Source: Bacteroidetes bacterium CG23_combo_of_CG06-09_8_20_14_all_32_9 (GTDB lineage: Bacteria; Bacteroidota; Bacteroidia; Bacteroidales; GWA2-32-17). Taken from it: 15,031 nucleotides of DNA. The stretch is taken from the NCBI GenBank assembly GCA_002771395.1, contig PCSS01000037.1:1-15031 (forward strand), in the 5' to 3' direction. The notes under the pieces are model-generated. The model was not told the origin of the DNA, searched no databases, and saw only the letters and a program-made list of their open reading frames with translations. The translations under genes and the position numbers were made by a program. Positions 1 through 14,717 of the stretch are shown in pieces; within the stretch, counting starts at the first letter, position 1, and the number at the start of each line of letters is the position of its first letter.

Positions 1-70
1 GTTAGAAAAGGGACTGAAAGAAAAGGGGTTTTGATAGTTTTGGATGGCTTGGATTTATACATTATAAATT

Positions 71-136
71 GGTATAGAGGAATAGGGTATAGAGGTATAA
101 GGCGCACAAAACCAATACCTTTATACCATACCTATT
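71..136. repeat. Imperfect palindromic repeat, copy 1 of a dispersed family
   Basis: The left arm (71-102, GGTATAGAGG then AATAGGGTATAGAGG) is nearly the reverse complement of the right arm (112-136, containing ATACCTTTATACC), around a short loop CGCACAAAA. A related palindrome lies at 14007-14077. Both copies share AGAGGAATAG on the left (76-85) and ATACCTTTATACC on the right (115-127), in the same order and orientation. This suggests a small dispersed intergenic repeat of REP or MITE type; no transposase is visible beside it. Confidence 0.6.
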
Positions 137-255
137 TATGTACAAATTTATCCCGTTTTATGTATAATTTCACTCCTTCACCACCTTCCAAACCCCCACA
201 CTTTCTTTTGTTTCAAGTTTTACAAAATATATCCCGCTATTGAAACTGGAGTAAA

Positions 256-298
256 GTAGGCAGCGGCAGGAGCAGTTTGCAGTCCTGCCTACTACCGC
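256..298. repeat. GC-rich hairpin
   Basis: Several nested pairings are possible. GGCAGGA (265-271) pairs with TCCTGCC (283-289), with GCA/TGC inside around a GTT loop. GTAGGCAG (256-263) can instead pair with CTGCCTAC (285-292). An outer GCGG/CCGC (263-266 with 295-298) also exists. A short T run follows at 304-309, so it could end transcription entering from the left, although the spacing is loose for a canonical terminator. Its GC content stands out against the surrounding AT-rich DNA. Confidence 0.5.
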
Positions 299-351
299 TT
301 GTTCGTTTTTTCGGGAGTTGTACCTATTTACTGTTATGACATCACAATAGT

Positions 352-750
352 TTAAAATTCTAAAAAATCCTTTGGTTTTAGAATATCTATTCCCTGAAAA
401 TTTTTTTGTTCAAGCAGATGATGATCGCCAGAAATAATATATTTTGCTTTTCCGTTTATGGCACATTCTATAAAAATATTATCTGTCGGGTCTTCTTTGA
501 TGATATGTATTTTCGATTTAATATTTATCAGGGTAGCTGTTTTTCTGAAATCGTTGACTAAAGGAATTATTTCATGAGGAGAAAGACCAAATTTCTTATA
601 TGAAAGAACCCGTATTAATTCTGCTTCAATTTCTTTACTATACAATATTTTTATTTTATTTCTTTTGGCTAATTCATATATTTTCCTGGAGTTTCCGTTC
701 CAGAAAAAAGCAGAAACAGTAACATTTGTATCTAATACTATACGTTTCAC
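352..750 (-). CDS. PIN-domain toxin, putative endoribonuclease
   Basis: A 132-residue single PIN domain of the family often annotated as putative toxin-antitoxin toxin component, PIN family (COG1569-like). The four expected acidic positions are visible: D7 in VLDTNV (followed by N9), E44 in EIEAEL, D90 in DPTDN and D109 in SGDHHLL. In this fold they coordinate Mg2+ or Mn2+ for RNA cleavage. The length is normal for the family and the frame is intact, so the toxin is probably active. Its ATG overlaps the end of the upstream antitoxin gene by 4 bp, the usual translationally coupled antitoxin-first order. The RNA target cannot be read from the sequence. The family call is secure; toxicity is inferred from the pairing. 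Confidence 0.88.
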   Translation of the reverse strand: MKRIVLDTNVTVSAFFWNGNSRKIYELAKRNKIKILYSKEIEAELIRVLSYKKFGLSPHEIIPLVNDFRKTATLINIKSKIHIIKEDPTDNIFIECAINGKAKYIISGDHHLLEQKNFQGIDILKPKDFLEF

Positions 751-971
751 TTCAGTCCCCTGGATTCGTGAATAATTTTTTCTATTTCTTTTTCAGTTAT
801 TGCATAAAAGCCCTTTTCTCTGGCAATGTTTTCAGCAAAGGAATAAACATCGGTATCCTGCACAGGTAATAATATTACTTCAAAAACCCTTCCTTTGCGC
901 TTTGCAATTTCTTTGGGAATAGAAAGGTGTCCATCCGGGAGAACCTTACTGATAAATTTAGTCGCCTGCAT
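747..971 (-). CDS. Antitoxin of the PIN toxin, AbrB/MazE-like N-terminus
   Basis: A 74-residue protein directly upstream of the PIN toxin and overlapping it by 4 bp. Residues about 5-36 (FISKVLPDGHLSIPKE, then a basic stretch and VFEVILLP) resemble the swapped-hairpin AbrB/SpoVT/MazE DNA-binding fold, whose hallmark is a dG-x-(l/i)-x-(i/l)-P-k-e core. Residues about 40-74 are helical and charged (ENIAREKG, EKEIEKIIHE), as expected of a toxin-wrapping tail. By analogy with VapBC-type pairs it would neutralise the toxin and repress its own operon. A TAnnTTTG-type -7 box lies about 30 bp upstream. The role rests mainly on position; the fold assignment is moderately supported. Confidence 0.75.
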   Translation of the reverse strand: MQATKFISKVLPDGHLSIPKEIAKRKGRVFEVILLPVQDTDVYSFAENIAREKGFYAITEKEIEKIIHESRGLK

Positions 972-1001
972 ACATTTTACATTGTTTTAAAATATTTTGA
1001 A

Positions 1002-1009
1002 CAAAGATA
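1002..1009 (-). promoter_or_regulatory. Putative -7 box of the toxin-antitoxin operon
   Basis: Read on the minus strand this is TATCTTTG, an exact match to the Bacteroidota -7 consensus TAnnTTTG, about 30 bp upstream of the antitoxin ATG. I find no good -33 TTTG at the usual spacing, so the call rests on the -7 element and its position. Confidence 0.45.
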
Positions 1010-1049
1010 ATCTTTTTTTCAGAATAAATTTATATAAATGACGGTTTTG

Positions 1050-1200
1050 TTATTCTTTCACAAACTTCTTTATCACAACTCCTTTTTCCGTTTTTACTGG
1101 TTCGGCGACTTTGAGGTATTTTAAAACAGCATTTTCCCAGTCGGCTGTAAAAACCGCCGAAAATTTATCAAAAAAGATTTTTAGTATCAGTTTCTAGCAT
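1050..1200 (-). pseudogene. Small coding remnant with a one-base frameshift
   Basis: On the minus strand the frame ending in the stop at 1050-1052 reads FSAVFTADWENAVLKYLK and then VAEPVKTEKGVVIKKFVKE, which has protein-like composition, unlike the surrounding low-complexity DNA. This frame has no start codon before an in-frame stop at 1194-1196. A different frame starts at ATG 1198-1200 (MLETDTKNLF) and hits a stop right after a run of six T. Losing one T there would join the two into one smooth protein of about 49 residues. It may be a decayed small gene, a gene expressed by slippage on the homopolymer, or a sequencing error. I do not recognise the family, and no overlap with a known domain is claimed. 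Confidence 0.45.
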
Positions 1201-1250
1201 GATTAAAATTTATAAGGCGGTGTAAAGGTAGCCAAAAAATAGCAAAATAT

Positions 1251-1417
1251 TTAGTTTTTGGTTTTTAGTTTTTGGTTATGGTTTTTATAGTTTCCGGTTA
1301 TGGTTTTATGGTTTTATAGTTCAGCAACACTAAAATAATTGCTTGAAACGAACTAATAAACCAATGAACTAAAACAAGTAACCAAAAAACTAAAACCAAT
1401 AACCACCAACTATAAAC
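1251..1417. repeat. Large GT/AC-rich imperfect inverted repeat
   Basis: The left side (about 1251-1322) is built of recurring TTAGTTTTTGG, GGTTATGG and TTTTATAGTT words. The right side (about 1345-1417) holds their complements (AACTAAAAC, AACCAAAAAACTAAAACC, AACTATAAAC). The two sides pair imperfectly across a short unique centre. It lies in the gap between the toxin pair and the MORN-repeat gene and carries no open frame. Strand asymmetry (G+T on one arm, A+C on the other) is striking. Similar words recur near 14139-14170. Confidence 0.55.
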
Positions 1418-1484
1418 AAAATTGCCTGTTTGGTTGTGGCTTTTTCACGTTGGGATTTACGAATTAAGAAATTGTTAATAATTT

Positions 1485-1516
1485 TTTGAAATTTTATTTT
1501 ACAAAATGTAATTTTG
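1485..1516 (+). promoter_or_regulatory. Bacteroidota-type promoter of the MORN-repeat gene
   Basis: TTTG at 1485-1488 and TAATTTTG at 1509-1516 fit the -33 TTTG / -7 TAnnTTTG consensus with a 20-bp spacer. Transcription would start near 1522, giving a leader of about 33 nt before the ATG at 1556. This also argues against the upstream in-frame ATG at 1514, which would lie inside the -7 box. Confidence 0.65.
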
Positions 1517-1555
1517 ATTTATCAAATAACTAAATTCAACAAAAAAATTTATATC

Positions 1556-3295
1556 ATGAAAAGGTACTTTTTCGTAATCTTTATTAGCTTTATATCAGCA
1601 TTTTCATACTCGCAGGATACAGTTGTGAACTATTACAAGAACAAGAAAAAAGCCAGCGAGGGAGTTATTCTTAAAGGTGCAGAATACGGGCGATGGAAAT
1701 ATTATAGCCAAAATGGAAAACTTATCCAGGAAACTGATTTTGTGAATGGCTTCGCTCACGGAAAAATAATTTATTATTATCCGAATGGAAAAAAACAAAA
1801 CGAAGGGGAATGGAAATATGGTTTGCAGCGAGGTGAATACGACGAATGGTTTGAAAGCGGACAATTAAAAGTGAAAGGTTTTTACAAACTCGGAAGCAAA
1901 GACAGTATTTGGACATACTGGTACGAAGCCGGACAAAAGAAAAAAGAAGTTTTTTATGCAAACAATAATGATTATAAATTACAGAATTTCTGGTCGTTTG
2001 ATAGTAAGTTGATGGTTGATAAAGGAAACGGAATATATGAAGATAAATATTCAAACGGAAAATCTAAAGTAAACGGAGAATATAAAAACGGAAAAGAAAC
2101 AGGCGAATGGAATTATTGGTACGAAAACGGACAAAAACAATCGTCGGGAAATTATACAAACGGAGTACGAACAGGAAAGTGGCTTTCGTGGTTTAATGAT
2201 GGCGTTTTGCAATCTGAATTAAATTACGAAAACGGGAAAAATATAACCTACTATCACAACAGTCAAAAAGAAATGGAGGGAACCTTAAAAGACAGCCTTA
2301 AAGAAGGATTGTGGATTTTTTATTACGAAAGCGGGCAAAAGAAAATGGAAGGCGGATTTAAAGCGGATTTGCGAACCGGCATTCACACAAAATGGTACGA
2401 AAACAGCAACAAAGAATCAGAAATAACATTTGACACCGGAAAAAAGAACGGCTCGGCAAAATGGTATTTGGAAAACGGAAAACCGTATATTGATGGAAAC
2501 TTTGCAAATGACATTCAGGAAGGTAAATGGACATATTGGCGCACTGATGGAGTAAAAGGCAACGAAGGCAACTATTCTAACGGTAAAATGAACGGAATGT
2601 GGACTTATTGGTACGGCAACGGAAAAACATGGAAAGAAATTAATTTTAATGATGGTTTAAAAAACGGGAAAGTGATTTTTTATTACGAAAACGGTAACAA
2701 AGAGCACGAAGGTGATATGGAAAATGGCTTGGAAACAGGATATTGGAATATGTGGTACGAAAACGGAAATAAAAAAATGGAAGGAAATTTTGTGAACGGA
2801 ATAATGGACGGACTATGGAAAGGTTACCACGAAAACGCACAGAAAAAATATGAAATTACTTATAAGGACAGCATTCAGGATGGAAAAGTAACATATTGGT
2901 TTCCAAATGGTAATTTGCTTTCTGAAGAAACATTTATTAATAACATTCATCAAGGAGCTTATAAAACATGGTATTCCAACGGAAAAACCAATACAACCGG
3001 AAATTATAAAAATGATGAAAAAATTGGCGAATGGCTATATTACAGTGAACAGGGACAGTTACTACGCCAGGAATCATATAAAAACGGCAGAGCAGATGGC
3101 AAATGGTTAACTTATTATCCACAAGGTCCAATAGAAAGTGAAATTAATTATAAAAATGGCTTAAAAGACGGAAAAACAATTTATTACGAGTCAAACGGAA
3201 AAATAATTTTTGAAGCTGTTTTCCAGTTTAACAAACTTGTAAAAGTAATTTCCGGAACAAATCCCGAAGAAAAAAGTCCGGCAAATAAAGAGTAA
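1556..3295 (+). CDS. Secreted MORN-variant (YwqK-like) repeat protein
   Basis: A 579-residue protein with an N-terminal signal peptide (MKRYFFVIFISFISAFSYSQ) followed almost entirely by about 21 tandem repeats of roughly 24 residues. The pattern is G-x-W-x-x-W-Y-x-N-G-x-K-x-x-E-G-x-(F/Y)-x-N-G. This is the MORN_2 / YwqK-type repeat, expected to form an elongated beta-hairpin array. Databases often label such proteins antitoxin YwqK, but an exported, single-domain repeat protein with no toxin beside it gives no support for that role. A scaffold or surface-binding role is more likely, but unproven. I start at 1556 because it begins the signal peptide and lies just downstream of a well-matched promoter; an in-frame ATG at 1514 falls within the -7 box. 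The 3' end overlaps the convergent truncated gene by 105 bp. Repeats near residues 145-165 and 240 are degenerate. Confidence 0.9.
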   Translation: MKRYFFVIFISFISAFSYSQDTVVNYYKNKKKASEGVILKGAEYGRWKYYSQNGKLIQETDFVNGFAHGKIIYYYPNGKKQNEGEWKYGLQRGEYDEWFESGQLKVKGFYKLGSKDSIWTYWYEAGQKKKEVFYANNNDYKLQNFWSFDSKLMVDKGNGIYEDKYSNGKSKVNGEYKNGKETGEWNYWYENGQKQSSGNYTNGVRTGKWLSWFNDGVLQSELNYENGKNITYYHNSQKEMEGTLKDSLKEGLWIFYYESGQKKMEGGFKADLRTGIHTKWYENSNKESEITFDTGKKNGSAKWYLENGKPYIDGNFANDIQEGKWTYWRTDGVKGNEGNYSNGKMNGMWTYWYGNGKTWKEINFNDGLKNGKVIFYYENGNKEHEGDMENGLETGYWNMWYENGNKKMEGNFVNGIMDGLWKGYHENAQKKYEITYKDSIQDGKVTYWFPNGNLLSEETFINNIHQGAYKTWYSNGKTNTTGNYKNDEKIGEWLYYSEQGQLLRQESYKNGRADGKWLTYYPQGPIESEINYKNGLKDGKTIYYESNGKIIFEAVFQFNKLVKVISGTNPEEKSPANKE

Positions 3296-3829
3296 AGTTA
3301 TACTTTGAAAAATAATGTCTTTGCCATCGCTGCTTATTTGAGTTTCTGATGAAATTGCCCGAATAACCATAGCCGGGTTATTTGAACCGGTAATATTTTT
3401 AATAGTTGCAGGTAATATTGGAGTTTTTCCTATTTGCCCGGGGTCAATAAGTTTTGCATCGTCTTTTTCGGGTCGTACTTCTATGCCATCCCTACCACCT
3501 ATTAAAATTCCTTCCGATAATTTAACATCTTTCATAAACGTAGGTTCACCGGGAAAAACGCTTGCATCATGGGTTTGCGTTGTGTAACCAACGTAAGAGA
3601 AATTTACCTGATAAGTGCCCGATGGAAGCGGTTTTATAGTAAACATTCCATCGGCATTTGTTATTGTTCCGGTTTTGCTTCCATCTGCATCAATATATAC
3701 ATTGCAACCTGGCAATGGCTGTTTTGACAAGGCATCAAGCACCCGCCCTTTTAGCGAACCTGCGTTTTGTGCATGTATCCATATAAACGGCAGAATTGCA
3801 AAAATGATGACAAATTTTAATGTTTTCAT
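3191..3829 (-). pseudogene. 3'-truncated outer-membrane receptor (CarboxypepD_reg + plug start)
   Basis: The first 20 residues are a signal peptide (MKTLKFVIIFAILPFIWIHA). Residues about 25-105 are a carboxypeptidase-regulatory-like beta-sandwich (SLKGRVLDALSKQPLPGCNV, then TNADGMFTIKPLPSGTYQV and SYVGYTTQT). Residues about 137-174 (ATIKNITGSNNPAMVIRAIS, SSDGKDIIF) look like the start of a TonB-dependent plug-type region. In intact relatives this normally continues into a plug and barrel. Here recognisable sequence stops near residue 175 (about 3305), and the remaining 37 residues are hydrophobic noise read antisense through the 3' end of the MORN-repeat gene. I therefore read it as the 5' remnant of a much longer gene, cut by a deletion or rearrangement at about 3300. 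A truncated secreted protein could still be made. The domain call is firm; non-functionality is inferred. Confidence 0.7.
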
Positions 3830-4033
3830 GATTTAAGATTTTTTTAGTTTAACAATTTTTGTGAGCTTTTAATATATGAAGCCAATGTCATATATTTTCC
3901 ACAAAAAAATCTAAAAAATATGCACTTTTGATATTTACTTCGTAAAATATATTTATGAGTAAATTGCTTTGCATAGTTAAAATACGTTATCAAACGTAAT
4001 GAATTTTAAATTTAAGAATGATGTTTCTTATAA

Positions 4034-4067
4034 ATTGTAAATAATTTTAAAATAGTCAATTTTACTA
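4034..4067 (+). repeat. 34-bp direct repeat, left copy
   Basis: It begins ATTGTAAATAATTTT and ends GTCAATTTTACTA. It is identical over all 34 positions to 7668-7701, and the match stops on both sides (A versus C before, G versus A after). The two copies enclose the mutase and two glycosyltransferase genes plus their promoter. Within the repeat, GTAAA and TTTAC form a weak inverted pair around ATTTTAAAAT, a layout that could suit a recombinase core site, though that is inference. Confidence 0.9.
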
Positions 4068-4083
4068 GAAACGCAATAAACCC

Positions 4084-4116
4084 TTGTTTCTTAATTACAC
4101 AAATTGTGTATCTTTG
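4084..4116 (+). promoter_or_regulatory. Promoter of the glycosylation cassette
   Basis: TATCTTTG at 4109-4116 is an exact TAnnTTTG -7 box. TTG at 4084-4086 lies 22 bp upstream, a slightly long spacer for the -33 element. Transcription would begin near 4123, about 180 nt before the mutase start, and the promoter sits inside the direct repeats, so the cassette carries its own expression signal. Confidence 0.6.
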
Positions 4117-4192
4117 TTTTACAATTAAATGTTTTTTCATTTTACAACTTTTTTTTTTGACGAGGACTATGTAAAATTAAACTTTATCCATC

Positions 4193-4230
4193 AAGGCAAA
4201 GAGAAAGAATTTTTCTTTCTCTTTTGTCTT
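4193..4230 (+). promoter_or_regulatory. Leader hairpin upstream of the mutase gene
   Basis: AAAGAGAAAGAA (4198-4209) and TTCTTTCTCTTT (4213-4224) form a perfect 12-bp stem with a 3-nt loop. Five more pairs extend it past one bulged T (4193-4197 with 4226-4230, one of them a G-U wobble). No T run follows on the plus strand, so it is not a standard intrinsic terminator. It lies in the predicted leader and could affect mRNA stability or translation. Confidence 0.6.
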
Positions 4231-4302
4231 AAAAAATATTATTTTACAAATTCACAAAGTACTATAAAAAGTTGCATTAATTACTCGAATTTAGGAAATA
4301 AT

Positions 4303-5448
4303 ATGAAGCACATAAATAAAAAAGATGCCATTAACAAAGCAAAATTTGACATTTTAATAGTCGGTGCAGGTATTTCAGGCGCTGTACTTGCAGAACGTTT
4401 TGCTTCCAGATGTAATAAGAAAGTCCTTATTATTGATAAAAGAGAACATATAGGTGGTAACTGTTATGACTTTATTGATCAAAATGGGATTCTAATAAAT
4501 AAATACGGAGCACATATATTTCATACAAATTATAAAAAAGTATGGGAATATATACATAAATTTAGTGAATGGGAACGTTGGGATCATAGAGTTTTAGGAT
4601 TTATTGAAGGTAAGTATATCAATATTCCTGTAAATATTAATACTGTTAATGCACTTTGTGGAACTAATATTAAAGATGAAAATGAGATGAATCGATGGTT
4701 AAAATCAAATCAAGTAAAATATAACAAATTAAATAATAGTGAAGAAACCGCTAAGTCGCGGGTAGGCGAAGAATTATATAATAAAATATTCAGAAATTAT
4801 ACATATAAACAATGGAATAAATACCCCGAAGAGTTAGACTATCCAGTCCTTTCACGAATACCTGTTCGTAAAAATTTTGATGATAGATATTTTGATGATA
4901 AATATCAAGTTCTACCAAAATATGGTTATACTAAATTTATTGAAAATATTTTAAAGCACCCTAATATTTATGTCCTAACGAATACTGATTATTTTGAATT
5001 TAAAAACACTATCAATTTTGATAATTTAATTTATACAGGACCTATTGACAAATACTTTGAAGAATCGGGCTTTCATAAATTAGAATACCGCTCAATTGAA
5101 TTTATAGAAGAACGGTATAAAAACATGAATTTCTATCAAGTAAATTCTGTTATTAATTACCCTGAGATTAATGTACTTTATACCCGAATAGTAGAATACA
5201 AGCACTTTCTAAATCAGCAATCGCCACATACAACAATAGTAAAAGAATTTCCTAAAGATTCCGGAGAGCCATACTATCCTGTTCCTGACAAGAAAAATCT
5301 TATACTTTTAAAAAAATATAAAAAACTGTCAGAACATGAAAAACATGTCCGTTTTATAGGTAGGTTAGCTAATTATAAGTATATTAATATGGACCAGGCA
5401 ATCAAAAATTCCCTTGAATTCTTTAATAATTATAACCACTGCAAATAA
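4303..5448 (+). CDS. glf: UDP-galactopyranose mutase
   Basis: A 381-residue flavoenzyme that interconverts UDP-galactopyranose and UDP-galactofuranose in the cytoplasm, supplying galactofuranose for surface polysaccharides. The Rossmann FAD motif is at residues 16-26 (DILIVGAGISG), followed by IIDKREHIGGNCYD, the family signature YGAHIFHTN (68-76), YTGPIDKYF, the YTRIVEYKHF segment, GEPYYPVPDKKN, and the C-terminal GRLANYKYINMDQAI that closes the FAD site. Length matches the family (about 370-390). I start at 4303 because AGGAAA lies 5 nt upstream and the recognisable fold starts soon after; a stop-free frame continues upstream to 4129. First gene of a three-gene unit; the next start is 16 nt after its stop. 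Codon use is visibly more AT-rich than in genes outside the direct repeats, consistent with acquisition. Identification is very secure. Confidence 0.95.
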   Translation: MKHINKKDAINKAKFDILIVGAGISGAVLAERFASRCNKKVLIIDKREHIGGNCYDFIDQNGILINKYGAHIFHTNYKKVWEYIHKFSEWERWDHRVLGFIEGKYINIPVNINTVNALCGTNIKDENEMNRWLKSNQVKYNKLNNSEETAKSRVGEELYNKIFRNYTYKQWNKYPEELDYPVLSRIPVRKNFDDRYFDDKYQVLPKYGYTKFIENILKHPNIYVLTNTDYFEFKNTINFDNLIYTGPIDKYFEESGFHKLEYRSIEFIEERYKNMNFYQVNSVINYPEINVLYTRIVEYKHFLNQQSPHTTIVKEFPKDSGEPYYPVPDKKNLILLKKYKKLSEHEKHVRFIGRLANYKYINMDQAIKNSLEFFNNYNHCK

Positions 5449-5464
5449 TGTTAAAGATAGTATT

Positions 5465-6205
5465 ATGAATGATAAATTATACATTGTTATGCCTTCATAT
5501 AATGAAGAAGCGAATATTGAAGAAAACGTAAAACAATGGCATAGTGTTATTGAAAAAGTTGGGTTAAATTCACGGTTATTTGTTTTTGATGATGGTAGTA
5601 CTGATAATACTTATGAAATAATGCAACGTTTAAAAAATAAGTATTTACAATTCATACCATTTACAAAATCAAATACTGGGCATGGTCAAACATGTATTTT
5701 TGCATATAAAAACAGTATAAGTGCTGGTGCAGACTTCATTTTTCAAACTGATTCCGATAGTCAAACTAATCCTGAAGAATTTTGGCAATTCTGGGAAAAA
5801 CGAAATGATTATGATTTTATAATTGGCGAAAGAAAAAAACGTCAAGATGGTATTAGCAGAAAGGCAGTTGCATTTATTTTAAAATTAATTATTTTGCTAA
5901 TTTATGGAGTAAATGTAAAAGATTGCAATTGTCCTTTCAGATTGATGAATGCTAAAAAATTAAAACCAATATTAGAAATTATTCCTGACAACTTTTTTCT
6001 TTCAAATGTTATTATTAGTATTTTAGTAGTTAAGAAAAAAGAAAAACACTTATGGATTCCAATATCATTTAAACCTCGAAAATATGGTGTAAATTCAATT
6101 AATTTAAAAAAAATTATTAAAATTGGTTTTAAATCTATTTTTGATTTTTATTCTATAAAACATAAAATCGCAAATTTGAAAAATGAATGTAAACCTGAAA
6201 AATAA
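5465..6205 (+). CDS. DPM1-like family 2 glycosyltransferase
   Basis: A 246-residue GT-A fold enzyme. The nucleotide-sugar binding region shows VMPSYNEE (8-15) and DDGSTDNT (42-49), the metal-binding DSD is at 96-98, and GERKKRQDG (121-129) and DCNCPFRLM (153-161) follow. This order matches the dolichyl- or polyprenyl-phosphate sugar synthase branch of GT2, which moves a sugar from a nucleotide donor to a polyprenyl phosphate. It lacks the C-terminal transmembrane pair of GtrB-type members; residues 132-150 are hydrophobic and may dip into the membrane. It starts 16 nt after the mutase stop and its 3' end overlaps the next gene by 23 nt, so the three genes are probably one transcript. I start at 5465, where the fold begins; an in-frame ATG at 5414 would overlap the mutase. 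The sugar is unknown, but the mutase next door makes galactofuranose a candidate. Confidence 0.88.
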   Translation: MNDKLYIVMPSYNEEANIEENVKQWHSVIEKVGLNSRLFVFDDGSTDNTYEIMQRLKNKYLQFIPFTKSNTGHGQTCIFAYKNSISAGADFIFQTDSDSQTNPEEFWQFWEKRNDYDFIIGERKKRQDGISRKAVAFILKLIILLIYGVNVKDCNCPFRLMNAKKLKPILEIIPDNFFLSNVIISILVVKKKEKHLWIPISFKPRKYGVNSINLKKIIKIGFKSIFDFYSIKHKIANLKNECKPEK

Positions 6206-7661
6206 TAAAACGTTTTTACTTATTATTATTGGAATTTATATTCTAACATTTATAATTATTTCAAAAAATATTAATACGCCATACTTATGGTATGATGAAG
6301 CTGGTCAATTTTTTATTTCAAAAGGATTAAATCACGATTCAAATCCAATGGAAAATGAAAAAGGTTTAATAGATGTTGTAAAAAATAATGCTTTTTATAA
6401 TCTTGACCCGGGTGGTTTTAGTATTTTATTACATTTTTGGACACAAATATCAAATTCTCATATTTGGTTACGATTTCTTCCGTTTATTTTTTTTGTTGGC
6501 ATATTGTTATCGGTTATTTATTTATCGTATTTATGGTTAAAAAACTTAAATATTGCTTTATTATTAGGTTTTATTCCGATTTTAATACCCACATTTATTA
6601 GGATGGGGTTTGAATTAAGGGCATACAGCATGGAAATTTTAGGTGCTATGTTAGGAGTTGTTGCATTAGAAAAGTTAAAAAATAAAATAAGTGTCAAATA
6701 TCTTTTTTTGTGGGGTTGCGTATTTTCATTTTTTATTACTTCACGTTACTCCGAAATTGTTATTATTTTTGTTGTATCTATTTATGTTTTATATTTTATT
6801 TTAATTTTAAAATTATCATTAATACAAAAAATAACAGCAGTTTTAAGCTATTCGCTACCTATATTAATATCTTTAACTTACATTTATTTTTTTGCATTAG
6901 TTTATCAAAATAAAAATATCGAACAAGTTGCATATCTTCCATATATTAGTAACGATATAAATATTTTGTTTACACCTAATGACAACTTAATTTACATAAG
7001 CTTTATAGCGTTTTTAATAATATTATACTTCATGAAAAACAGATTCACAATAATTAAAAAATATCAATTATTAATATCTTTAACTATTTCGATAAATGTT
7101 TTTTTTGTTTTTCTTTCATTTATAGGCAAACATCCATGGTGCCCATTTTCTAACAGATGCATTTCTTTTTTCTCAATTACACTACTTTGCATTATTGCAT
7201 TTTTAGGAGAATTAATTATTAGCAATTTAAAAAAATATGAGTTTTTGAAATATTTTATTATTCCATCATTAATTTTCATACTATTTCTAAAACGGAACAC
7301 ATTAACTATCAGACAAGTTCAAAATAATACATATTATAATTTTGTAAAAACTGATATTAAGAATTTTAATAGAATTTATGTTGATTGGTGGGAATCGCCA
7401 TGTATAAGATATTTATTTGAGTATGGCAAATTAAAAACAACAGAAAAAAGCGATTATCCCGAAAAATTTACTTTTGGAAAATATATTAGACATGGTTTTT
7501 ATAAGGGAAAAATATCCAGAGACGATTTTATTAAGTTACATCCTAAAATGAATAATCTTCTTGAATATGATTTGCTTATAACCCCTGAGTTGATTGATTA
7601 TGGTTTTAGTGATAAATGGAAATTAATTGATGGAACTACGAATTTCTTTATTAAACGATAA
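6183..7661 (+). CDS. Multi-spanning GT-C glycosyltransferase (PMT/ArnT-like)
   Basis: A 492-residue integral membrane protein with roughly ten hydrophobic segments. The first is at about 11-27, several more run to about 370, and an extracytoplasmic soluble tail takes up about 385-492. After the first helix comes LWYDEAGQFF, with the Asp-Glu pair (D38, E39) typical of the first outer loop of GT-C enzymes (GT39/GT83), where an acidic residue acts in catalysis. LDPGGFSILLHFW (74-86), WLRFLPFI (95-102) and FELRAYSM (143-150) also match family landmarks. Such enzymes use polyprenyl-phosphate sugars on the outer face of the inner membrane, which fits a DPM1-like donor synthase immediately upstream. 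The gene overlaps its neighbour by 23 nt and ends 6 nt before the right direct repeat. Very AT-rich, Ile/Phe/Asn-rich. Acceptor (lipid A, O-antigen, protein) cannot be read. Confidence 0.85.
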   Translation: MNVNLKNNKTFLLIIIGIYILTFIIISKNINTPYLWYDEAGQFFISKGLNHDSNPMENEKGLIDVVKNNAFYNLDPGGFSILLHFWTQISNSHIWLRFLPFIFFVGILLSVIYLSYLWLKNLNIALLLGFIPILIPTFIRMGFELRAYSMEILGAMLGVVALEKLKNKISVKYLFLWGCVFSFFITSRYSEIVIIFVVSIYVLYFILILKLSLIQKITAVLSYSLPILISLTYIYFFALVYQNKNIEQVAYLPYISNDINILFTPNDNLIYISFIAFLIILYFMKNRFTIIKKYQLLISLTISINVFFVFLSFIGKHPWCPFSNRCISFFSITLLCIIAFLGELIISNLKKYEFLKYFIIPSLIFILFLKRNTLTIRQVQNNTYYNFVKTDIKNFNRIYVDWWESPCIRYLFEYGKLKTTEKSDYPEKFTFGKYIRHGFYKGKISRDDFIKLHPKMNNLLEYDLLITPELIDYGFSDKWKLIDGTTNFFIKR

Positions 7662-7667
7662 CTACAC

Positions 7668-7701
7668 ATTGTAAATAATTTTAAAATAGTCAATTTTACT
7701 A
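7668..7701 (+). repeat. 34-bp direct repeat, right copy
   Basis: Identical to 4034-4067. It lies 6 nt after the stop codon of the GT-C gene, so the repeated unit (repeat plus three genes and promoter) is about 3.63 kb. No integrase or transposase gene is visible inside or beside the unit. Confidence 0.9.
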
Positions 7702-7706
7702 AAAAA

Positions 7707-7756
7707 GGGTAAAACCATACATCTTGCATCCTGTATCAGATAGTACTAATTTACCC
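7707..7756. terminator. Nested inverted repeat after the glycosylation cassette
   Basis: GGGTAAA (7707-7713) pairs with TTTACCC (7750-7756), and inside them ATACA pairs with TGTAT. It sits in the 115-bp gap between the convergent cassette and CAP-domain gene, directly next to the right direct repeat. It could end transcription from either side, but there is no T tract, so a recombination-related or incidental role is equally possible. Confidence 0.35.
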
Positions 7757-7776
7757 CGTGCAAAGTATAAATCAAA

Positions 7777-8358
7777 TTATTTTTCACATTCCGGTAACGC
7801 AGGTTCTTTATCTGGCTCTGTGCCAAACCAAATAAGTACGTAATATCCTTCGGCAGATATACCAATAGCTTTCCATTTTATTTTATTAAATGTACCTTTT
7901 TCCGTGATAACATTATTGTGTCCCGTGCTTTTTTTCCAGCAGGTTAAAACTTCGGATGGTACAATGTTTCCGGAAGTTTTGTAAGCAATTTCATATCCTT
8001 CTGATTTGTAATTTGTTAATTCACCGGGTTTTGACCACATTAATTTAGAGTTTTTATGGTCCTCTGTATAGCAACAATTTTTCCACGTCCCTTTATCCGA
8101 CCAGCTATGCATATTACATACTCCCGTATCGGGATGATTTGTATCTAAATCGTGTGCATGAATTTTTGCAACCTTAGTGAGTTCGGCAGAAAGTTGAACA
8201 GCAGGTAGGTTCTTGCTTTTACGATACTGATTAATAATCTTTAACATTTCTTTTTCGTAAGAATTAATACAAAATTTATTTGGAATAGCATTTTGGGCTA
8301 ATAACAAATTAGCACTAACAAAAAAAATAACTATTAATAAAGCAGTAAATTTTTTCAT
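7777..8358 (-). CDS. Secreted CAP-domain (SCP/PR-1-like) protein
   Basis: A 193-residue protein with a signal peptide (about residues 1-21, ending LLLAQ) and a single CAP domain covering most of the rest. Landmarks: the N-terminal helix EKEMLKIINQYRKSKNLPAV (35-54), HAHDLDTNH with MHSWS (H84), SEGYEIAY (E120 and E123 region), and CWKKSTGHNNVI (140-151, H147), then AIGISAEGYYVLIWFG. H84, the glutamate region and H147 match the cavity tetrad of the family. Six cysteines (30, 81, 95, 96, 140, 192) suggest disulfides after export. CAP proteins bind lipids or peptides or act as proteases, and bacterial members are mostly uncharacterised; no activity is claimed. It is divergent from the ankyrin gene with only 40 bp between the two starts, so their promoters must overlap. 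Confidence 0.88.
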   Translation of the reverse strand: MKKFTALLIVIFFVSANLLLAQNAIPNKFCINSYEKEMLKIINQYRKSKNLPAVQLSAELTKVAKIHAHDLDTNHPDTGVCNMHSWSDKGTWKNCCYTEDHKNSKLMWSKPGELTNYKSEGYEIAYKTSGNIVPSEVLTCWKKSTGHNNVITEKGTFNKIKWKAIGISAEGYYVLIWFGTEPDKEPALPECEK

Positions 8359-8398
8359 AAAAATTGTTTTGTATTTTTACATGATAAACGTATAACTT

Positions 8399-9793
8399 AT
8401 GGCTAAAGTTTTTGGTATAATATTTTTTTTATGGTGTTTAATGCCAGTGCTTTGCTTTAGTCAGCAAGATACTACAAATACAGGAGATACAATAACAAAG
8501 GAACAACTTGATTTTCAGCTTATAGTTACTGCAGCAAAAGGCGATGCTGCTACTGTGCTTTATTTGATTGGTAAAGGAGCCGATGTAAATGCGAAAGCCA
8601 ATAACGGAATTTCTGCTTTAATGTATGCAGCACAAAACAAGTATATATTAGTTGTAAAAACTTTGGTAGCCAATGGTGCAGATATAAATTATTTTCCCCA
8701 GTTTGAAGTTTCTGCACTATCATCGGCAGTTATAAATAATCAATTTGAGATTGTTAAGTATCTTTTGAGAAGAGGCGCTGATATTAATATTTTAAATTAT
8801 AAAAAAATTACTCCTTTAATGTATGCTGCCGCTTATGGTTATGAGCCTATAGTTCAATTGCTTTTACAACAAAGTGCAGATATTAATAAAAAAGACATTT
8901 ACGGCAACGATGCACTTATTTTATCGGTAATGTATAATCATCCCGATGTTTCTGAACTTTTGCTTAACTACGGGGCAAATCCTAACACCTGCGATAACGA
9001 AAAATTTACTCCGCTTATATTGGCATCGCAAAACGGACAAATATGGTATTTTGATATGCTTAAAATATTTAATGCGGATTTTACAGCCATAAATATTGAT
9101 AATTATTCTGCACTTGATATGGCTGTTATAAATAACAAGCCGGAATCAATTACAAAACTTTTAGAATCAGATTCTTCAGGAAAATTAATTTCAACTCAAC
9201 CTATAAAATTAGCTTATCTGTCGGGGAATAGCGAATTGATTACTGTACTGAAAAAAGGTGGTTGCAAACCATATCTTTTACCATTATTTGATAAAATATC
9301 AATTGGCTATGGCTTTGATGCAAATTTTAATGATATAATGTTTGGCGCTGCTGTTGGCTTGCTGGAAGCAAGATATAACTTTATGTTTACATTTTCGCAT
9401 TTTTCAAGATATTGGGCAAAACGTGTTCTGGTTGATTACGGAAATGACATTTTTATGCAATTTTGGGAACGGCGGTCGTATCTTTCATTAGGTATTGATA
9501 AACGAGTTAAACTGGGCGGAGCAGGAAATAAACAACTCGGAATATCTGTTGGAGCTAAAGAATTTTGTACTTATGGGCATTATAGAGGAGCAATTATTTC
9601 ACCATCAATTAGTTGGATTATTGTGCCAACCATAGGATTTTATTCAGGAAACAAAATAGGAGGTATTTCCTGCTCTCTGGAATATGTTAATTTTGAAACA
9701 GAAAAAGTTTCACCTTTGCGAATTAATACTACGGCTTATTTTTATATTGATATAAAAAGGTTTAAGAAAATCATAAAAGAACCCGAATGGTAA
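8399..9793 (+). CDS. Exported ankyrin-repeat protein with C-terminal barrel-like domain
   Basis: A 464-residue protein with three parts. Residues 1-22 are a signal peptide (LWCLMPVLCFSQ). Residues about 38-290 hold seven to eight ankyrin repeats; clear ones include GADVNAKANNGISALMYAA, RRGADINILNYKKITPLMYA and NYGANPNTCDNEKFTPLILA, and later copies are degenerate. Residues about 298-464 alternate polar and hydrophobic or aromatic positions (ISIGYGFDANF, LLEARYNFMFTF, TIGFYSGNKIGGISCSLEYV, TTAYFYIDI) and look like an eight-stranded outer-membrane barrel. The likely picture is periplasmic ankyrin repeats tethered to the outer membrane. Ankyrin repeats bind proteins, so a scaffold role is plausible. 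The lipoprotein gene downstream overlaps its stop by 7 nt, implying co-translation. The ankyrin call is firm; the barrel is inferred from strand pattern alone. Confidence 0.85.
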   Translation: MAKVFGIIFFLWCLMPVLCFSQQDTTNTGDTITKEQLDFQLIVTAAKGDAATVLYLIGKGADVNAKANNGISALMYAAQNKYILVVKTLVANGADINYFPQFEVSALSSAVINNQFEIVKYLLRRGADINILNYKKITPLMYAAAYGYEPIVQLLLQQSADINKKDIYGNDALILSVMYNHPDVSELLLNYGANPNTCDNEKFTPLILASQNGQIWYFDMLKIFNADFTAINIDNYSALDMAVINNKPESITKLLESDSSGKLISTQPIKLAYLSGNSELITVLKKGGCKPYLLPLFDKISIGYGFDANFNDIMFGAAVGLLEARYNFMFTFSHFSRYWAKRVLVDYGNDIFMQFWERRSYLSLGIDKRVKLGGAGNKQLGISVGAKEFCTYGHYRGAIISPSISWIIVPTIGFYSGNKIGGISCSLEYVNFETEKVSPLRINTTAYFYIDIKRFKKIIKEPEW

Positions 9794-10245
9794 AAAAACA
9801 TAGTTGCACTTTGTTAATATTCATTTTGCTGGCTTTTGGCTGCAACAAAAATTCATATACCGATTGTGAAAGTTACGATTATTCATCGTGCAATACCGTT
9901 GAGCCAACAGATGGGGTGCTTCAAATTATTGTAAGCCAGGAAAACGATTCTTCAAAAGTTCCGGTTTGGCTTTATAAAGGGAAATACGGTGCACCGGAAG
10001 TTCTTATTTATATGGATACCGTTTCTACAGTTGAAATAAAATTTAATCTTTCACTTAACAAAGATTATTATGCTGTGGCTGAATATGTTAAAAATGGAAA
10101 ACATATCTATGCTGTTGATGGAACTTTTTTTAAAAAGAAAGGTCAAACAATTTGCGATTCAACATGCTGGACAATAAATGGAGATGTAATAGATGTTAGG
10201 CTAAAAAATCAGAAAGTCCAGCCTAAGCCAACTAAAGGACCGTAA
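9787..10245 (+). CDS. Small lipoprotein of unknown function
   Basis: A 152-residue protein with a lipoprotein signal peptide: basic start (MVKK), hydrophobic stretch, and lipobox LAFGC with the lipidated Cys at 19. The mature part is probably a compact beta-sandwich (GVLQIIVSQEN, VPVWLYKGKYG, VEIKFNLSLNKDYYAVAEYV, HIYAVDGTFFKKKG). Four cysteines (27, 35, 123, 127) could form disulfides. It resembles small carboxypeptidase-regulatory-like or transthyretin-like sandwich lipoproteins in shape, but I do not recognise a family. Its ATG lies inside the end of the ankyrin gene (7-nt overlap), so the two products likely act together at the outer membrane. The 3' end overlaps the convergent barrel gene by 37 bp. 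Confidence 0.75.
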   Translation: MVKKHSCTLLIFILLAFGCNKNSYTDCESYDYSSCNTVEPTDGVLQIIVSQENDSSKVPVWLYKGKYGAPEVLIYMDTVSTVEIKFNLSLNKDYYAVAEYVKNGKHIYAVDGTFFKKKGQTICDSTCWTINGDVIDVRLKNQKVQPKPTKGP

Positions 10246-10829
10246 ACTGCTGTTTTGGAAACATTTCTACCTATAAAATCGTAAGAACGCTCAAGGTGTA
10301 TGTCGCATGCAATGCGGCACATAAAGCCGCCTTTTGGTTCCTGGTATCTGAAACCAACAGAAACATAAGGAGTAAGTATTTCTCTGTATTTATAATAATA
10401 TGCACCCGAACCCAATTCAAATTGATATATGCGTCCTAATAAAAGATTTATTCCAAAGGGGAAAAAATTTTCGTTTCCTTTATAAGTTGTGTCATTTGTA
10501 GCGTTATTTAAGCCGACACCTATGCGTGCTGTTAGTGCGTTGTTTTCGCGTGATTGCAACAATAAATCATAGTTTACCGAATACCTTTCTCCTGTATAAT
10601 ATCCCCAGAAATATCCGCCTTCTGCGAAAAACGTATGAATTCCATATCGGCGTTTCTTAAAACCCCGGCGGGGTTTAGTAAAATCATTATCAGTAGAAGT
10701 AGTTATTTTAAATGAAACGCCATCAGTATTATTAAACGAAAACTGTGCTTCACTTTCACAGCAAAATATTGAAATTAAAATATTGAAAATAAGAATGTTG
10801 CCTAATTTAAAATAAGGGTTCATTGCCAT
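10209..10829 (-). CDS. Outer-membrane beta-barrel-like protein
   Basis: A 206-residue protein with an N-terminal signal peptide (hydrophobic stretch through ILISIFCC, cleavage near SEAQ). The rest is made of alternating aromatic or hydrophobic strands (HTFFAEGGYFWGYYTGERYS, ARIGVGLNNA, INLLLGRIYQFELGSGAYYY, PYVSVGFRYQ, GPLVGLGWTF). It ends in a terminal Phe, the usual signal for outer-membrane barrel assembly. Strand count suggests a small barrel of about eight strands. I do not recognise the family. The annotated start is the first of two nearby ATGs (10829 and 10823); the second is equally possible. The gene is convergent with the lipoprotein gene and divergent from tex by 106 bp. Confidence 0.72.
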   Translation of the reverse strand: MAMNPYFKLGNILIFNILISIFCCESEAQFSFNNTDGVSFKITTSTDNDFTKPRRGFKKRRYGIHTFFAEGGYFWGYYTGERYSVNYDLLLQSRENNALTARIGVGLNNATNDTTYKGNENFFPFGINLLLGRIYQFELGSGAYYYKYREILTPYVSVGFRYQEPKGGFMCRIACDIHLERSYDFIGRNVSKTAVYGPLVGLGWTF

Positions 10830-10935
10830 TTTTAATAAAAACCATTTAAATTTTAAAATGTAAATGTAAAAAACTTTTTTATTATTAACCTATTTTAATA
10901 CCGAAAATCTTTTTCAATCTTTGCAAAAAAACAAT

Positions 10936-13065
10936 ATGGAAATTGAAATAATTAAACTTATAGCAAGTGAATTAACTTGCGAAACATGGCAGGTAAACAA
11001 TGTTACAGTTCTTTTTGAAAGTGGCGCAACAATCCCATTTATAAGCCGGTACCGAAAAGAAATGACAGGAAGCCTTAATGAAGTTATTATTTCGCAAATA
11101 AAAGAATTGGTTGATAAATATCAAATTCTTGAAAAAAGAAAAATAACTATTATCGAAACAATTAACAAAGCAGGGAAACTTACACCTGAACTTGAACAAA
11201 AAATAAAAAACTGTTACAATTCCACCGAACTCGAAGATATTTATTTACCTTTTAAGCCAAAGCATAAAACACGTGCCGAAATTGCCCGTTCAAAAGGATT
11301 AGAGCCTTTGGCAGACTATATTTATTTACAGAAAAATCAAAATATCAGGCAATATGCTCAAACTTTTTTATCTGAAAATGTAAAAAATGTTGATGATGCA
11401 ATTTCAGGTGCAAATGATATTATTGCCGAAAAAATAAATGAGGATATAAAAGCACGAAATATAATTCGTAATCTATTTGAAAAAGAGGCTGTTATAACTT
11501 CAAAACTAATAAAAAGTAAAGCAACCGAAGCGGTAAAGTATTCAGATTATTTTAATTTACACGAAAAACTTGCAAAATGCCCGTCGCACAGGCTACTTGC
11601 CATGCGCAGGGGCGAAAAAGAAGGTTTTTTAAGAGTTTCAATAGAAATTGATGATGAAAATGCTGTTCAGCAGTTATCAAAATTGTTTGTTATTGACAGA
11701 GGTGATGCTTCCGAACAAGTATTTTTATCTGTTCAGGATGCTTATAAAAGATTGATGTGTCCATCTATTGAAAATGAATTTGCTGCATTATCAAAAGAAA
11801 AGGCCGATAAAGAGGCTATTCGTGTTTTTGGTGAAAATTTACGACAGTTGTTATTGTTGCCGCCTTTAGGGAACAAACGAGTTTTAGCCATTGACCCTGG
11901 TTTTCGTACTGGTTGTAAAGTGGTTTGTATTAACGAACAGGGAAATATTTTACATAACGAAACTATTTATCCGCACCCGCCGCAAAAAGAAATTATTGCA
12001 GCCTCAAAAAAGATTTCTTCAATTGTAAATGCTTATAAAATTGAATGTATAGCTATTGGAAATGCCACAGCAGGTCGCGAAACCGAAATATTTATTAAAA
12101 ATGTGCGTCTCGAAAAACCTATAAAAGTTTATATGGTAAGCGAAGCAGGTGCATCGGTTTACAGTGCCTCGCCGGTAGCCCGCGAAGAATTGCCTGAATA
12201 TGATGTTACAGTTAGAGGAGCTGTTTCCATTGGAAGAAGACTTCAGAATCCGCTTGCCGAATTGGTAAAAATTGACCCAAAAGCTATTGGCGTAGGACAA
12301 TATCAGCACGATGTTAATCAAATTTTACTTAAAAATAGTCTTAATAATATTGTTGAAGAGTGTGTAAATAAAGTTGGTGTAAATTTGAACACATCAAACA
12401 GATATTTATTATCTTATGTATCGGGAATTAGTCCCCAATTAGCAAAAAATATAAATTATTACTGTGCTAAAAACGGTCCATTTAAATCGAGAAAAGATTT
12501 GTTAAAAGTTCCTCGTTTTGGCGAAAAGGCTTTTGAACTTGCAGCAGGTTTTTTGCGTATTTCCAATGCCGTTAATCCTCTTGACAACACCGCCGTTCAT
12601 CCCGAAAGATATGATTTAATATCAAAAATATGCAGCAATTTGGGTTGTTCCATTAACCAATTAATTGCCAATAAAGAATTAATTGAAAAAATAAAAATTG
12701 AAAATTATGTTTCCGAAAAAGTAGGCTTACCAACATTAACCGATATGATTCGCGAATTAGAAAAACCCGGACGTGATATACGCTTAAATATAAAAGTTTT
12801 TGAGTTTTCGCCCGACGTTTTTACTATTGATGATTTAAAAGCGGGAATGGTGATTCCGGGAATTATTACCAATATTACAAATTTTGGAGCTTTTGTTGAT
12901 ATTGGTATCAAACAAAACGGACTTGTACATATTTCAAATATTTGTAATGAGTTTATTACAAATCCAGCCGATAAAGTTTCATTAAATCAGCATGTAAAGG
13001 TAAAAGTTCTTGAGGTGAATAAGGAAAGAGGAAGAATTCAGTTATCAATGAAAGAAAATGAGTAA
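10936..13065 (+). CDS. tex: Tex family RNA-binding transcription accessory protein
   Basis: A 709-residue protein with the full Tex architecture. The N-terminal helical region carries the family sequence ESGATIPFISRYRKEMTGSL (about 28-47). A YqgF/RNase H-like domain starts near 314 with the DPG signature (RVLAIDPGFRTGCKVV, D320). A helix-hairpin-helix region spans about 480-545 (SGISPQLAKNINYYC, SRKDLLKVPRFGEKAFE), and a C-terminal S1 domain lies at about 637-707 (GIITNITNFGAFVDIGIKQN, GLVHISN). Tex proteins bind nucleic acid and affect transcription and its coupling to translation. Length and domain order are normal and intact. I choose the ATG at 10936; an in-frame TTG at 10921 would add five residues unlike Tex. 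AATCTTTG at 10914-10921 is one base off a -7 box but would leave a leader of only a few nt. A terminator follows the stop. Confidence 0.96.
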   Translation: MEIEIIKLIASELTCETWQVNNVTVLFESGATIPFISRYRKEMTGSLNEVIISQIKELVDKYQILEKRKITIIETINKAGKLTPELEQKIKNCYNSTELEDIYLPFKPKHKTRAEIARSKGLEPLADYIYLQKNQNIRQYAQTFLSENVKNVDDAISGANDIIAEKINEDIKARNIIRNLFEKEAVITSKLIKSKATEAVKYSDYFNLHEKLAKCPSHRLLAMRRGEKEGFLRVSIEIDDENAVQQLSKLFVIDRGDASEQVFLSVQDAYKRLMCPSIENEFAALSKEKADKEAIRVFGENLRQLLLLPPLGNKRVLAIDPGFRTGCKVVCINEQGNILHNETIYPHPPQKEIIAASKKISSIVNAYKIECIAIGNATAGRETEIFIKNVRLEKPIKVYMVSEAGASVYSASPVAREELPEYDVTVRGAVSIGRRLQNPLAELVKIDPKAIGVGQYQHDVNQILLKNSLNNIVEECVNKVGVNLNTSNRYLLSYVSGISPQLAKNINYYCAKNGPFKSRKDLLKVPRFGEKAFELAAGFLRISNAVNPLDNTAVHPERYDLISKICSNLGCSINQLIANKELIEKIKIENYVSEKVGLPTLTDMIRELEKPGRDIRLNIKVFEFSPDVFTIDDLKAGMVIPGIITNITNFGAFVDIGIKQNGLVHISNICNEFITNPADKVSLNQHVKVKVLEVNKERGRIQLSMKENE

Positions 13066-13066
13066 A

Positions 13067-13090
13067 AAAAAAGGCTATTCGCCCTTTTTT
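13067..13090. terminator. Bidirectional intrinsic terminator between tex and the AP2 gene
   Basis: AAAAAAGG (13067-13074) pairs with CCTTTTTT (13083-13090) around an 8-nt loop, with A and T runs on either side that serve both strands. It starts 2 nt after the tex stop and ends 6 nt before the AP2 gene stop. Confidence 0.75.
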
Positions 13091-13096
13091 ACTACG

Positions 13097-13711
13097 TTAT
13101 CTTTTCTTACATTTTGGAGCAACTTTTGCTTTATGAACAACTTTAGTTGTAGTCTTATGAGCAGATGCAACAGACTTTTTAGCGATTATATTAAGCGTAT
13201 TTGTTTTTCCAAATAATTCTGTTGACTTTTTGTTATAAGCCGCAGCAGCTTCTTCGGCTGTTTTAAAAGAGCCAAGAGAAATGCCTTTGCGATTAACATA
13301 AATATATGAATAATATTTACGTCCTTGTTTTACTACACCGCGATATCCTGTGCTGTTTCTGATTTTGCGTGTGTTTCGTACAAGATTTGAAAAGGTGCTC
13401 CACTCAAGGTTTTCAAGACGGCAGTCGTTAGGGTTGGAATTAATAAAGCGTACAAACCAACGAACTTTTCCTCCAGGTTTTTTAATAAATTTTTCAGAAA
13501 TAAGTTTATGAAGGTAAATAGTTTCATTTTTGTATAAACCATCTTTTTGCTTCCAGTTTTTCTGAAAGAAAACATACCCGCTGGAATGTTCTCTCAGGTT
13601 TTCAAAAAAATTAATGGTCTTTAAGCGATTGTCCTGATTAAGTTTCTCGTAAACATGTTCATCGAGAAGAATTTTTTTGTTTGAATTTTTCAGATTTAAT
13701 TTTACTGACAT
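13097..13711 (-). CDS. AP2-domain DNA-binding protein with degenerate HNH-like half
   Basis: A 204-residue protein. Residues about 62-115 resemble the core of HNH homing-type endonucleases found with AP2 domains (TIYLHKLISEKFI, then NPNDCRLENLEWSTFSNLVR). The expected middle histidine segment (usually v-x-H-i-d-G-n) reads VRFINSNP here, so the nuclease site appears lost. Residues about 120-174 are an AP2/ERF-type three-strand-plus-helix DNA-binding domain (STGYRGVVKQGRKYYSYIYV, then GISLGSFKTAEEAAAAYNKK). The tail (about 178-204) is Lys/Ala/Thr-rich and histone-like (KTTTKVVHKAKVAPKCKKR), likely gripping DNA non-specifically. A domesticated former homing protein acting as a DNA-binding or regulatory factor fits, as inference. 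Upstream lie a promoter and four TTTAATGTTAA-like repeats. AP2 identity is secure; function is not known. Confidence 0.85.
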   Translation of the reverse strand: MSVKLNLKNSNKKILLDEHVYEKLNQDNRLKTINFFENLREHSSGYVFFQKNWKQKDGLYKNETIYLHKLISEKFIKKPGGKVRWFVRFINSNPNDCRLENLEWSTFSNLVRNTRKIRNSTGYRGVVKQGRKYYSYIYVNRKGISLGSFKTAEEAAAAYNKKSTELFGKTNTLNIIAKKSVASAHKTTTKVVHKAKVAPKCKKR

Positions 13712-13714
13712 TTT

Positions 13715-13908
13715 TTTAATGTTTAAATTAATACTATGTTAAGAATTTTGAAAATATTATACAAATGTACATATAATTATAATATAATGAAACATTTTTT
13801 CAAAATTTTATTTTATAATACATTTATAACAATATCAGATAGATAGAACAATATTTAATGTTAATATTTAAGTTTAATGTTAATATACAAATACTTATTT
13901 AATGTTAA
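13715..13908. repeat. Cluster of TTTAATGTTAA repeats upstream of the AP2 gene
   Basis: TTTAATGTTAATAT occurs at 13854-13867 and 13873-13886, TTTAATGTTAA at 13898-13908, and the variant TTTAATGTTTAA at 13715-13726, between the promoter and the AP2 start codon. The distances between the first three are 19 and 25 bp. They could be binding sites for a regulator, possibly the AP2 protein itself. AT richness makes some chance recurrence possible. Confidence 0.5.
13762..13792 (-). promoter_or_regulatory. Putative promoter of the AP2 gene
   Basis: On the minus strand TACATTTG (13769 to 13762) matches the TAnnTTTG -7 box exactly, and TTTC (13792 to 13789) lies 19 bp upstream as a one-mismatch -33 element. 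The leader would be about 45 nt. Confidence 0.5.
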
Positions 13909-14006
13909 AAACAGCATTTTTTCTATTATTTTAAAAATATTAGTAAAAAATAGCAATCTTAATAGTAATTAAGGGGATTTGAAATAATTAATTCCAATAA
14001 AAATAA

Positions 14007-14077
14007 AGAGGAATAGAGGTATAGGGAAATACGGCTGTATCCTTATACCTTTATACCCTATACTTTCATACCTAATT
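14007..14077. repeat. Imperfect palindromic repeat, copy 2 of a dispersed family
   Basis: AGAGGAATAG (14007-14016), then AGGTATAGGG on the left, and CCTTATACCTTTATACCC (14041-14058) on the right, pair imperfectly around a short centre. It shares its left 10-mer and right ATACCTTTATACC with the palindrome at 71-136, in the same arrangement. Confidence 0.6.
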
Positions 14078-14239: not shown

Positions 14240-14248
14240 CTGCAAATT

Positions 14249-14712: not shown

Positions 14713-14717
14713 TTTAA

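Follow-up and report, generated by a model that had tools for sequence, protein, structure and literature searches.

Repeat-bounded surface-glycan modules and Gtr-type glycosylation systems are both already known. In the wzy locus of Salmonella Typhimurium (attL/attR-wzy), identical 113-bp direct repeats accompany a 2558-bp deletion, and a circular form was detected; the published discussion leaves the mechanism open among RecA-dependent, RecA-independent, and integrase routes (PMC12074656). We examined a three-gene cassette in a 15,031-nt stretch (contig PCSS01000037.1, positions 1 to 15,031, forward strand; hereafter the window) of the metagenome-assembled genome (MAG) of Bacteroidetes bacterium CG23_combo_of_CG06-09_8_20_14_all_32_9 (GCA_002771395.1). 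The cassette contains a gene for a UDP-galactopyranose mutase (glf), a GtrB-type family 2 glycosyltransferase gene (GT2), and a gene for a GT-C-like membrane protein, and it lies between two identical 34-bp direct repeats (34-mers). The locus is a variant of the known systems in that it combines a mutase gene of its own with the absence of gtrA and with bounding repeats of 34 bp.

The locus resembles wzy in carrying surface-glycan genes between perfect direct repeats with no recombinase identified in the available portion of that report, over 2.6 kb there and 3.6 kb here. The wzy repeats are 113 bp and their excision and circle were shown, whereas the 34-bp repeats are known from sequence alone; moreover, wzy encodes an O-antigen polymerase rather than the products of galactofuranose (Galf) and Gtr genes (PMC12074656). 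Salmonella gtr locus 2, on Salmonella pathogenicity island 16 (SPI-16), is likewise a horizontally acquired gtr-type operon bounded by a direct-repeat pair, but it is phage-associated and lies beside tRNA-Arg, whereas the present locus has no tRNA at its repeats, gains glf, and lacks gtrA (PMC3688519). The GtlA-GtcA-GtlB and CsbB-GtcA-YfhO systems share the pairing of a GT-A type synthase of undecaprenyl-phosphate (C55-P) sugar with a GT-C transferase, and differ in that the present cassette has a dedicated UDP-galactopyranose (UDP-Galp) mutase and no GtrA flippase; Wzx-type proteins are named as alternative flippases in some multi-component systems (PMC8035078). Klebsiella gmlABC likewise consists of gtr-like decoration genes near glf (rfb locus) and concerns a Galf-containing polymer; the difference is that the branches attached by gml are Galp, and the galactan receiving them has Galf in it beforehand (PMC7556023). 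In the open-licence literature, including the available portions of PMC7198725, PMC10821137, PMC9746298, PMC7556023, and PMC8035078, we found no Gtr-type system that includes a mutase gene or uses lipid-linked Galf.

A glf cassette between two 34-bp repeats

We favor, with modest confidence, a horizontally acquired Gtr-type glycosylation cassette whose endpoints are marked by the two 34-mers. An earlier note on this DNA had reported identical repeats at 4034-4067 and 7668-7701, and exact-repeat and mismatch searches recovered both. The pair is perfect, and no exact repeat in the window is longer; its 34 nt compare with maxima of 20 in 100 first-order and 19 in 100 third-order random windows. 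Each copy is intergenic, and the borders sit close to the genes, as the note had described: 6 nt separate the GT-C stop codon, which ends at 7661, from the right copy, and the left copy ends 42 bp before the promoter-like box TATCTTTG. Tolerating up to three mismatches, the host MAG (2.28 Mb, 400 contigs, 74% complete) contains these two copies and no others, and 59 related genomes contain none. The exact 34-mer was absent from genome_contigs and viral_contigs, and a 23-nt piece of it had no match in viral contigs.

The inverted arms of the 34-mer are not above chance (278 of 500 shuffles were as good), and its core lacks the symmetry of a recombinase site. Folding as a hairpin was rejected for both copies (z -0.50 and -0.28). 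No terminator-like site was found at 3800-7900, no tRNA was found at the 34-mers, and the segment between them does not end in terminal inverted repeats (68, 249, and 459 of 500 shuffles were as good for 25, 40, and 60 bases). A dispersed TTTACCCCGTT element was rejected as the cassette border, with one remnant at 7750-7759, on the right side only.

Within the repeats, the genes read on the forward strand. A promoter-like sequence at 4084-4116 (TTG, 22 nt, TATCTTTG, with the last at 4109-4116) is a candidate promoter of the Bacteroidetes type. Between it and glf, the operon leader contains a strong hairpin (4193-4230, forward strand), which is a possible attenuator of the operon; when 4190-4235 was folded, the z score was -5.2 and none of 200 shuffles was as stable. 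The mutase gene glf (4303-5448) matches TIGR00031 at equivalog level (358.1 bits; cut-off 303.75), scores above the cut-off for PF03275, and aligns with the solved mutase 3hdq at an E value of 9.5e-110. GT2 (5465-6205) encodes a GtrB/DPM1-like polyprenyl-phosphate glycosyltransferase that matches PF00535 and the phage family phrog_841, "GtrB-like O-antigen conversion" (1.2e-26); the solved structures related to it are those of ArnC, dolichol-phosphate mannose synthase, and sll0501. These matches place the product in the predicted class of GT-A (GtrB-type) polyprenyl-phosphate sugar synthases.

The third gene (6183-7661) encodes a multi-pass membrane protein with 232 homologs and approximately nine, partly overlapping hydrophobic segments. 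An invariant D38-E39 pair follows the first of these segments. The protein is likely a GT-C transferase, putatively the final one; the assignment is no firmer because the protein itself has no Pfam match, the PMT_2 domain was matched in 1 of 40 relatives and weakly (E 0.0042), and the family profile matched no solved structure at E ≤ 10. Thus, of the earlier gene labels, mutase and GT2 are upheld by family matches, and GT-C stands as likely only. A domain scan of the three genes found no recombinase, integrase, or transposase, in agreement with the note. Decay of the cassette was rejected, given that glf, GT2, and GT-C depart alone from columns that are invariant in all other rows only 1, 1, and 0 times (10, 13, and 13 alignment rows).

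The three genes have G+C fractions of 0.280, 0.250, and 0.236 (percentiles 8, 4, and 2 among 89 open reading frames from 20 host contigs), compared with 0.348 for MORN, 0.332 for CAP, 0.328 for ANK, and 0.331 for Tex outside, bearing out the earlier impression that the inner genes are richer in A+T. Among ten genomes of the family, glf occurs in the host alone (E ≤ 1e-20), and of 393 genomes from the order, four, including the host, carry the GT-C family. These data support a surface-sugar cassette that was probably acquired horizontally and inserted into the locus. Derivation of the GT-C gene from a phage or a plasmid was rejected, as the protein had no match in the phage, plasmid, or viral collections, viral contigs included. 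Phage carriage of glf- and GT2-type genes is conceivable because both families match phage protein families (phrog_9677 and phrog_841).

The cassette site in related genomes

Comparison with four other genomes of the same genus (G001 to G004) delimits the foreign segment. The conserved anchor of the locus is the right-flank gene for a CAP-domain protein (7777-8358, reverse strand; recognized by domain match and in relatives), which was found in all four, as were the further right-hand genes ANK, lipoprotein, OMP, and Tex. The left flank is a carboxypeptidase-regulatory-like gene, CPDreg (3337-3829, reverse strand; recognized by domain match and comparison with G003), whose 3' end is lost. Nucleotide comparison shows that 3920-7765 has no homology to the matching flanks of the four relatives. 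Left-flank homology stops at 3906 in G003, 3908 in G004, 3919 in G001, and 3883 in G002, and right-flank homology restarts at 7801, 7766, 7769, and 7822, respectively. Relative to these limits of homology (3883-3919 and 7766-7822), the left 34-mer sits 114-150 bp inward and the right 34-mer 64-120 bp inward.

Different genes occupy the spot in the relatives. In G001, G003, and G004, crcB (PF02537) lies on the far side of CAP and is followed by a rubrerythrin-like gene. That label reflects a weak Pfam match, which passes the cut-off in G003, falls short of it in G001, and is absent in G004; the G001 and G004 genes are 80 and 81% identical to the G003 copy. Three of the ten family genomes carry the rubrerythrin-like gene, for which the host has no match. 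G002 instead carries beside CAP an SBF-family transporter, a phosphatase-type protein, an ArsR-type regulator, and an ArsP_1 permease, a run that by our reading is arsenic-type. The 3' side of CAP is variable across the genus (L029, L030, L031, L032, and the window), holding crcB and the rubrerythrin-like gene, the ArsP_1 and ArsR-type genes, or the Galf cassette.

Diverged forms of the 34-mer in these relatives were also considered and rejected, the best ungapped matches being no better than those of shuffled queries in five of six loci. The exception is L032 of G002, where positions 1328-1361 match at 26 of 34 nt versus 24 for shuffles, and where blastn aligned 28 nt at 86% identity (E 3e-4). 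This could be a chance match in AT-rich DNA or a diverged copy; we take it as chance because it lies beside an HNH gene, approximately 5.6 kb from CAP.

Related GT-C loci

The closest relatives of the cassette GT-C protein (P0002 to P0013) share 58-65% identity with it. Searching genome_contigs yielded 21 loci of the GT-C family. A gtrB-type GT2 lies directly upstream of the GT-C gene in 12 of the 21, and in 9 of these 12 the cluster also includes glf on the same strand (seven upstream, two downstream); in L045, glf, GT2, and a second GT-C copy are on the opposite strand. The flippase gene gtrA immediately precedes gtrB in 10 of the 12 (three confirmed against Pfam) and was not found in L042, L043, or the window. 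The full order glf-gtrA-gtrB-GT-C appears in five of the 12 (L033, L034, L037, L046, and L048), with L047 truncated by a contig end. Because gtrA is so frequent in the related loci, we liken the cassette to a Gtr-type modification cassette minus gtrA.

Ten related loci were surveyed for bounding repeats within 1.5-kb flanks (shorter in L033, L037, and L048), including L045 despite its glf and GT2 on the other strand. The sole locus with a close bounding repeat that clearly exceeded control was L037, in which the 3' end of the upstream gene is copied (290 nt, 94%) 180 nt past the GT-C stop. Between the members of this pair (5037-5330 and 9670-9963) is the whole glf-gtrA-gtrB-GT-C set; a contig end and further repeats are nearby, and the pair parallels the 34-mers only loosely. 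The L046 repeat, at 14 versus a control maximum of 13, was left uncounted. In L039, a gtrA-gtrB-GT-C-glf cassette is enclosed at a distance by direct repeats of 356, 223, and 78 nt (83, 77, and 74%; at 2424-2984, 4582-4659, and 10972-12486), with at least one member of each pair beyond the surveyed 1.5 kb.

Route of acquisition and alternative explanations

Under the favored reading, Glf would produce UDP-galactofuranose, and GT2 would load the sugar, most likely galactofuranose, onto undecaprenyl phosphate at the inner face of the membrane. A flippase from elsewhere, gtrA being absent from the cassette, may turn the lipid-linked sugar over, and the GT-C-like protein would then pass it to a surface glycan; the resulting decoration is probably galactofuranose. 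In outline, this pathway follows the one reviewed for multi-component transmembrane glycosylation systems (PMC8035078). Insertion would have taken place between CAP and CPDreg, where G003, the one relative that shares this gene order, has crcB and the rubrerythrin-like gene. The simplest route would be one crossover between a resident 34-mer and a donor, either circular or repeated, with a single 34-mer.

Several observations weigh against this account. CAP and CPDreg are adjacent in G003 only, with the best CPDreg match on a contig without CAP in G001, G002, and G004, and G003 is also the only relative with both CPDreg and MORN on the left. Relative to G003, a deletion of approximately 3 kb, comprising a sigma-70-type gene and two others, adjoins the cassette site; CPDreg (within 3191-3829) thereby lacks approximately its last third and abuts the end of the MORN-repeat gene. 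Given the rarity of the CAP-CPDreg adjacency and the deletion alongside, the site must have undergone more than one rearrangement. The empty one-copy site that the note had proposed to seek in close relatives was not found in any clean case, the spot being occupied by other genes with no 34-mer at three or fewer mismatches. Codon choice in the cassette genes is host-like (percentiles 88, 97, and 88). GtrA (PF04138), moreover, was not found in the host MAG, which is only 74% complete and split into 400 contigs. In nine of the ten surveyed GT-C loci, no bounding repeat clearly exceeded control in the 1.5-kb flanks. Lastly, dispersed intergenic repeats are abundant in the host, and two of the 40 additional host contigs sampled (L071 and L099; 269,348 bp in total, 20 of the contigs being chosen for weak matches) have perfect repeats of at least 30 bp, 1-10 kb apart, on either side of ordinary genes.

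The last point also favors the alternative that fares best, in which the 34-mer is a low-copy intergenic repeat, its border position is incidental, and the cassette entered by ordinary homologous or illegitimate recombination. The host has several families of dispersed intergenic repeats, one with 176 half-sites, and the repeats that enclose unrelated genes include a 36-mer (L071) with 10 host copies; the L099 pieces have three and six copies in the 40 contigs, compared with two for the 34-mer. We consider this explanation possible but unlikely, and prefer the reading of the 34-mers as endpoints, because the 34-mer is exactly two-copy in the MAG and lies in both gaps flanking the foreign segment, a placement with a post hoc chance of 0.009 for two random noncoding 34-mers.

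Less credible is an excisable, phase-variable module, in which RecA or a trans-acting recombinase would act on the 34-mers to release a 3634-bp circle, turning the decoration off, with possible regain by transfer. The layout matches the wzy locus, and 34 bp passes the quoted RecA minimum for the RecBC pathway (23-27 bp) but not that for RecF (44-90 bp; PMC12074656). The MAG contains one phage-integrase-family match, at a contig end and with no known link to the cassette locus. Against such a module, the repeat is short, the cassette has no recombinase, and the symmetry of the 34-mer is no better than chance. Because 34 bp meets only the RecBC-type threshold, frequent phase switching would be unlikely without a dedicated recombinase. 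The broader idea of an exchangeable Bacteroidota glycan-decoration cassette, passing in and out via the 34-bp repeat, using polyprenyl-phosphate-galactofuranose, and reversibly changing a phage receptor as proposed for Salmonella wzy, is one to which we would give little credence at present.

Two further explanations are very improbable. The repeats could be a long target-site duplication from transposition, given that IS1549 and IS1634 reportedly leave direct repeats of 8 to 514 bp (PMC2266710), but there is no transposase among the three genes and no terminal inverted repeat within the 34-mers. An assembly artefact, joining another organism's cassette at a shared 34-mer, would fit the short metagenome contigs and odd base composition, but the GT-C cluster (90% identity) has five member sequences, and a false join requires an identical 34-mer at each end.

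Taken together, the inserted, excisable surface-sugar module of the earlier note divides into two parts. Insertion is supported by the absence of glf from the nine other family genomes, the other genes found at the spot between conserved flanks, the homology breaks, the AT-rich genes, and the restriction of the 34-mer to the borders; neither relatives carrying the cassette with unrelated flanks nor dozens of scattered 34-mers, the outcomes named in the note as counting against it, were observed. Insertion or excision driven by the repeats did not gain comparable backing, with no clean empty site, no inverted arms beyond chance, no terminal inverted repeats, and no comparable repeats in 9 of 10 related loci.

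Other repeats in the host

In L099, one of the control contigs, a radical-SAM gene (PF04055) lies between near-identical repeats of 51 and 58 nt (6672-6785 and 8179-8314), pieces of which occur in other host contigs. A palindromic intergenic element with TTTACCCCGTTGGATA ends is found genome-wide in the host, for example, at G000:C9:1637-1705, and has left a remnant in the window at 7750-7759. At up to one mismatch, its half-sites number 176 in the host, 62 in G002, and none in G001, G003, or G004, and a 36-mer from its interior occurs 10 times when up to three mismatches are allowed. The element resembles a miniature inverted-repeat transposable element (MITE) or a repetitive extragenic palindromic (REP) sequence and appears very patchy within one genus.

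Biological meaning

The recurring neighborhood of glf, gtrA, gtrB, and a membrane-protein gene, with glf in 9 of 12 loci, points to a lipid-linked galactofuranose donor that may be used outside the membrane. In the present bacterium, the cassette looks acquired, could perhaps be lost again, and probably serves to add an unusual sugar to the cell surface. Should the repeats prove functional, this uncultured lineage would have in common with Salmonella the loss and regain of a surface sugar in a single unit, with consequences for phage resistance.

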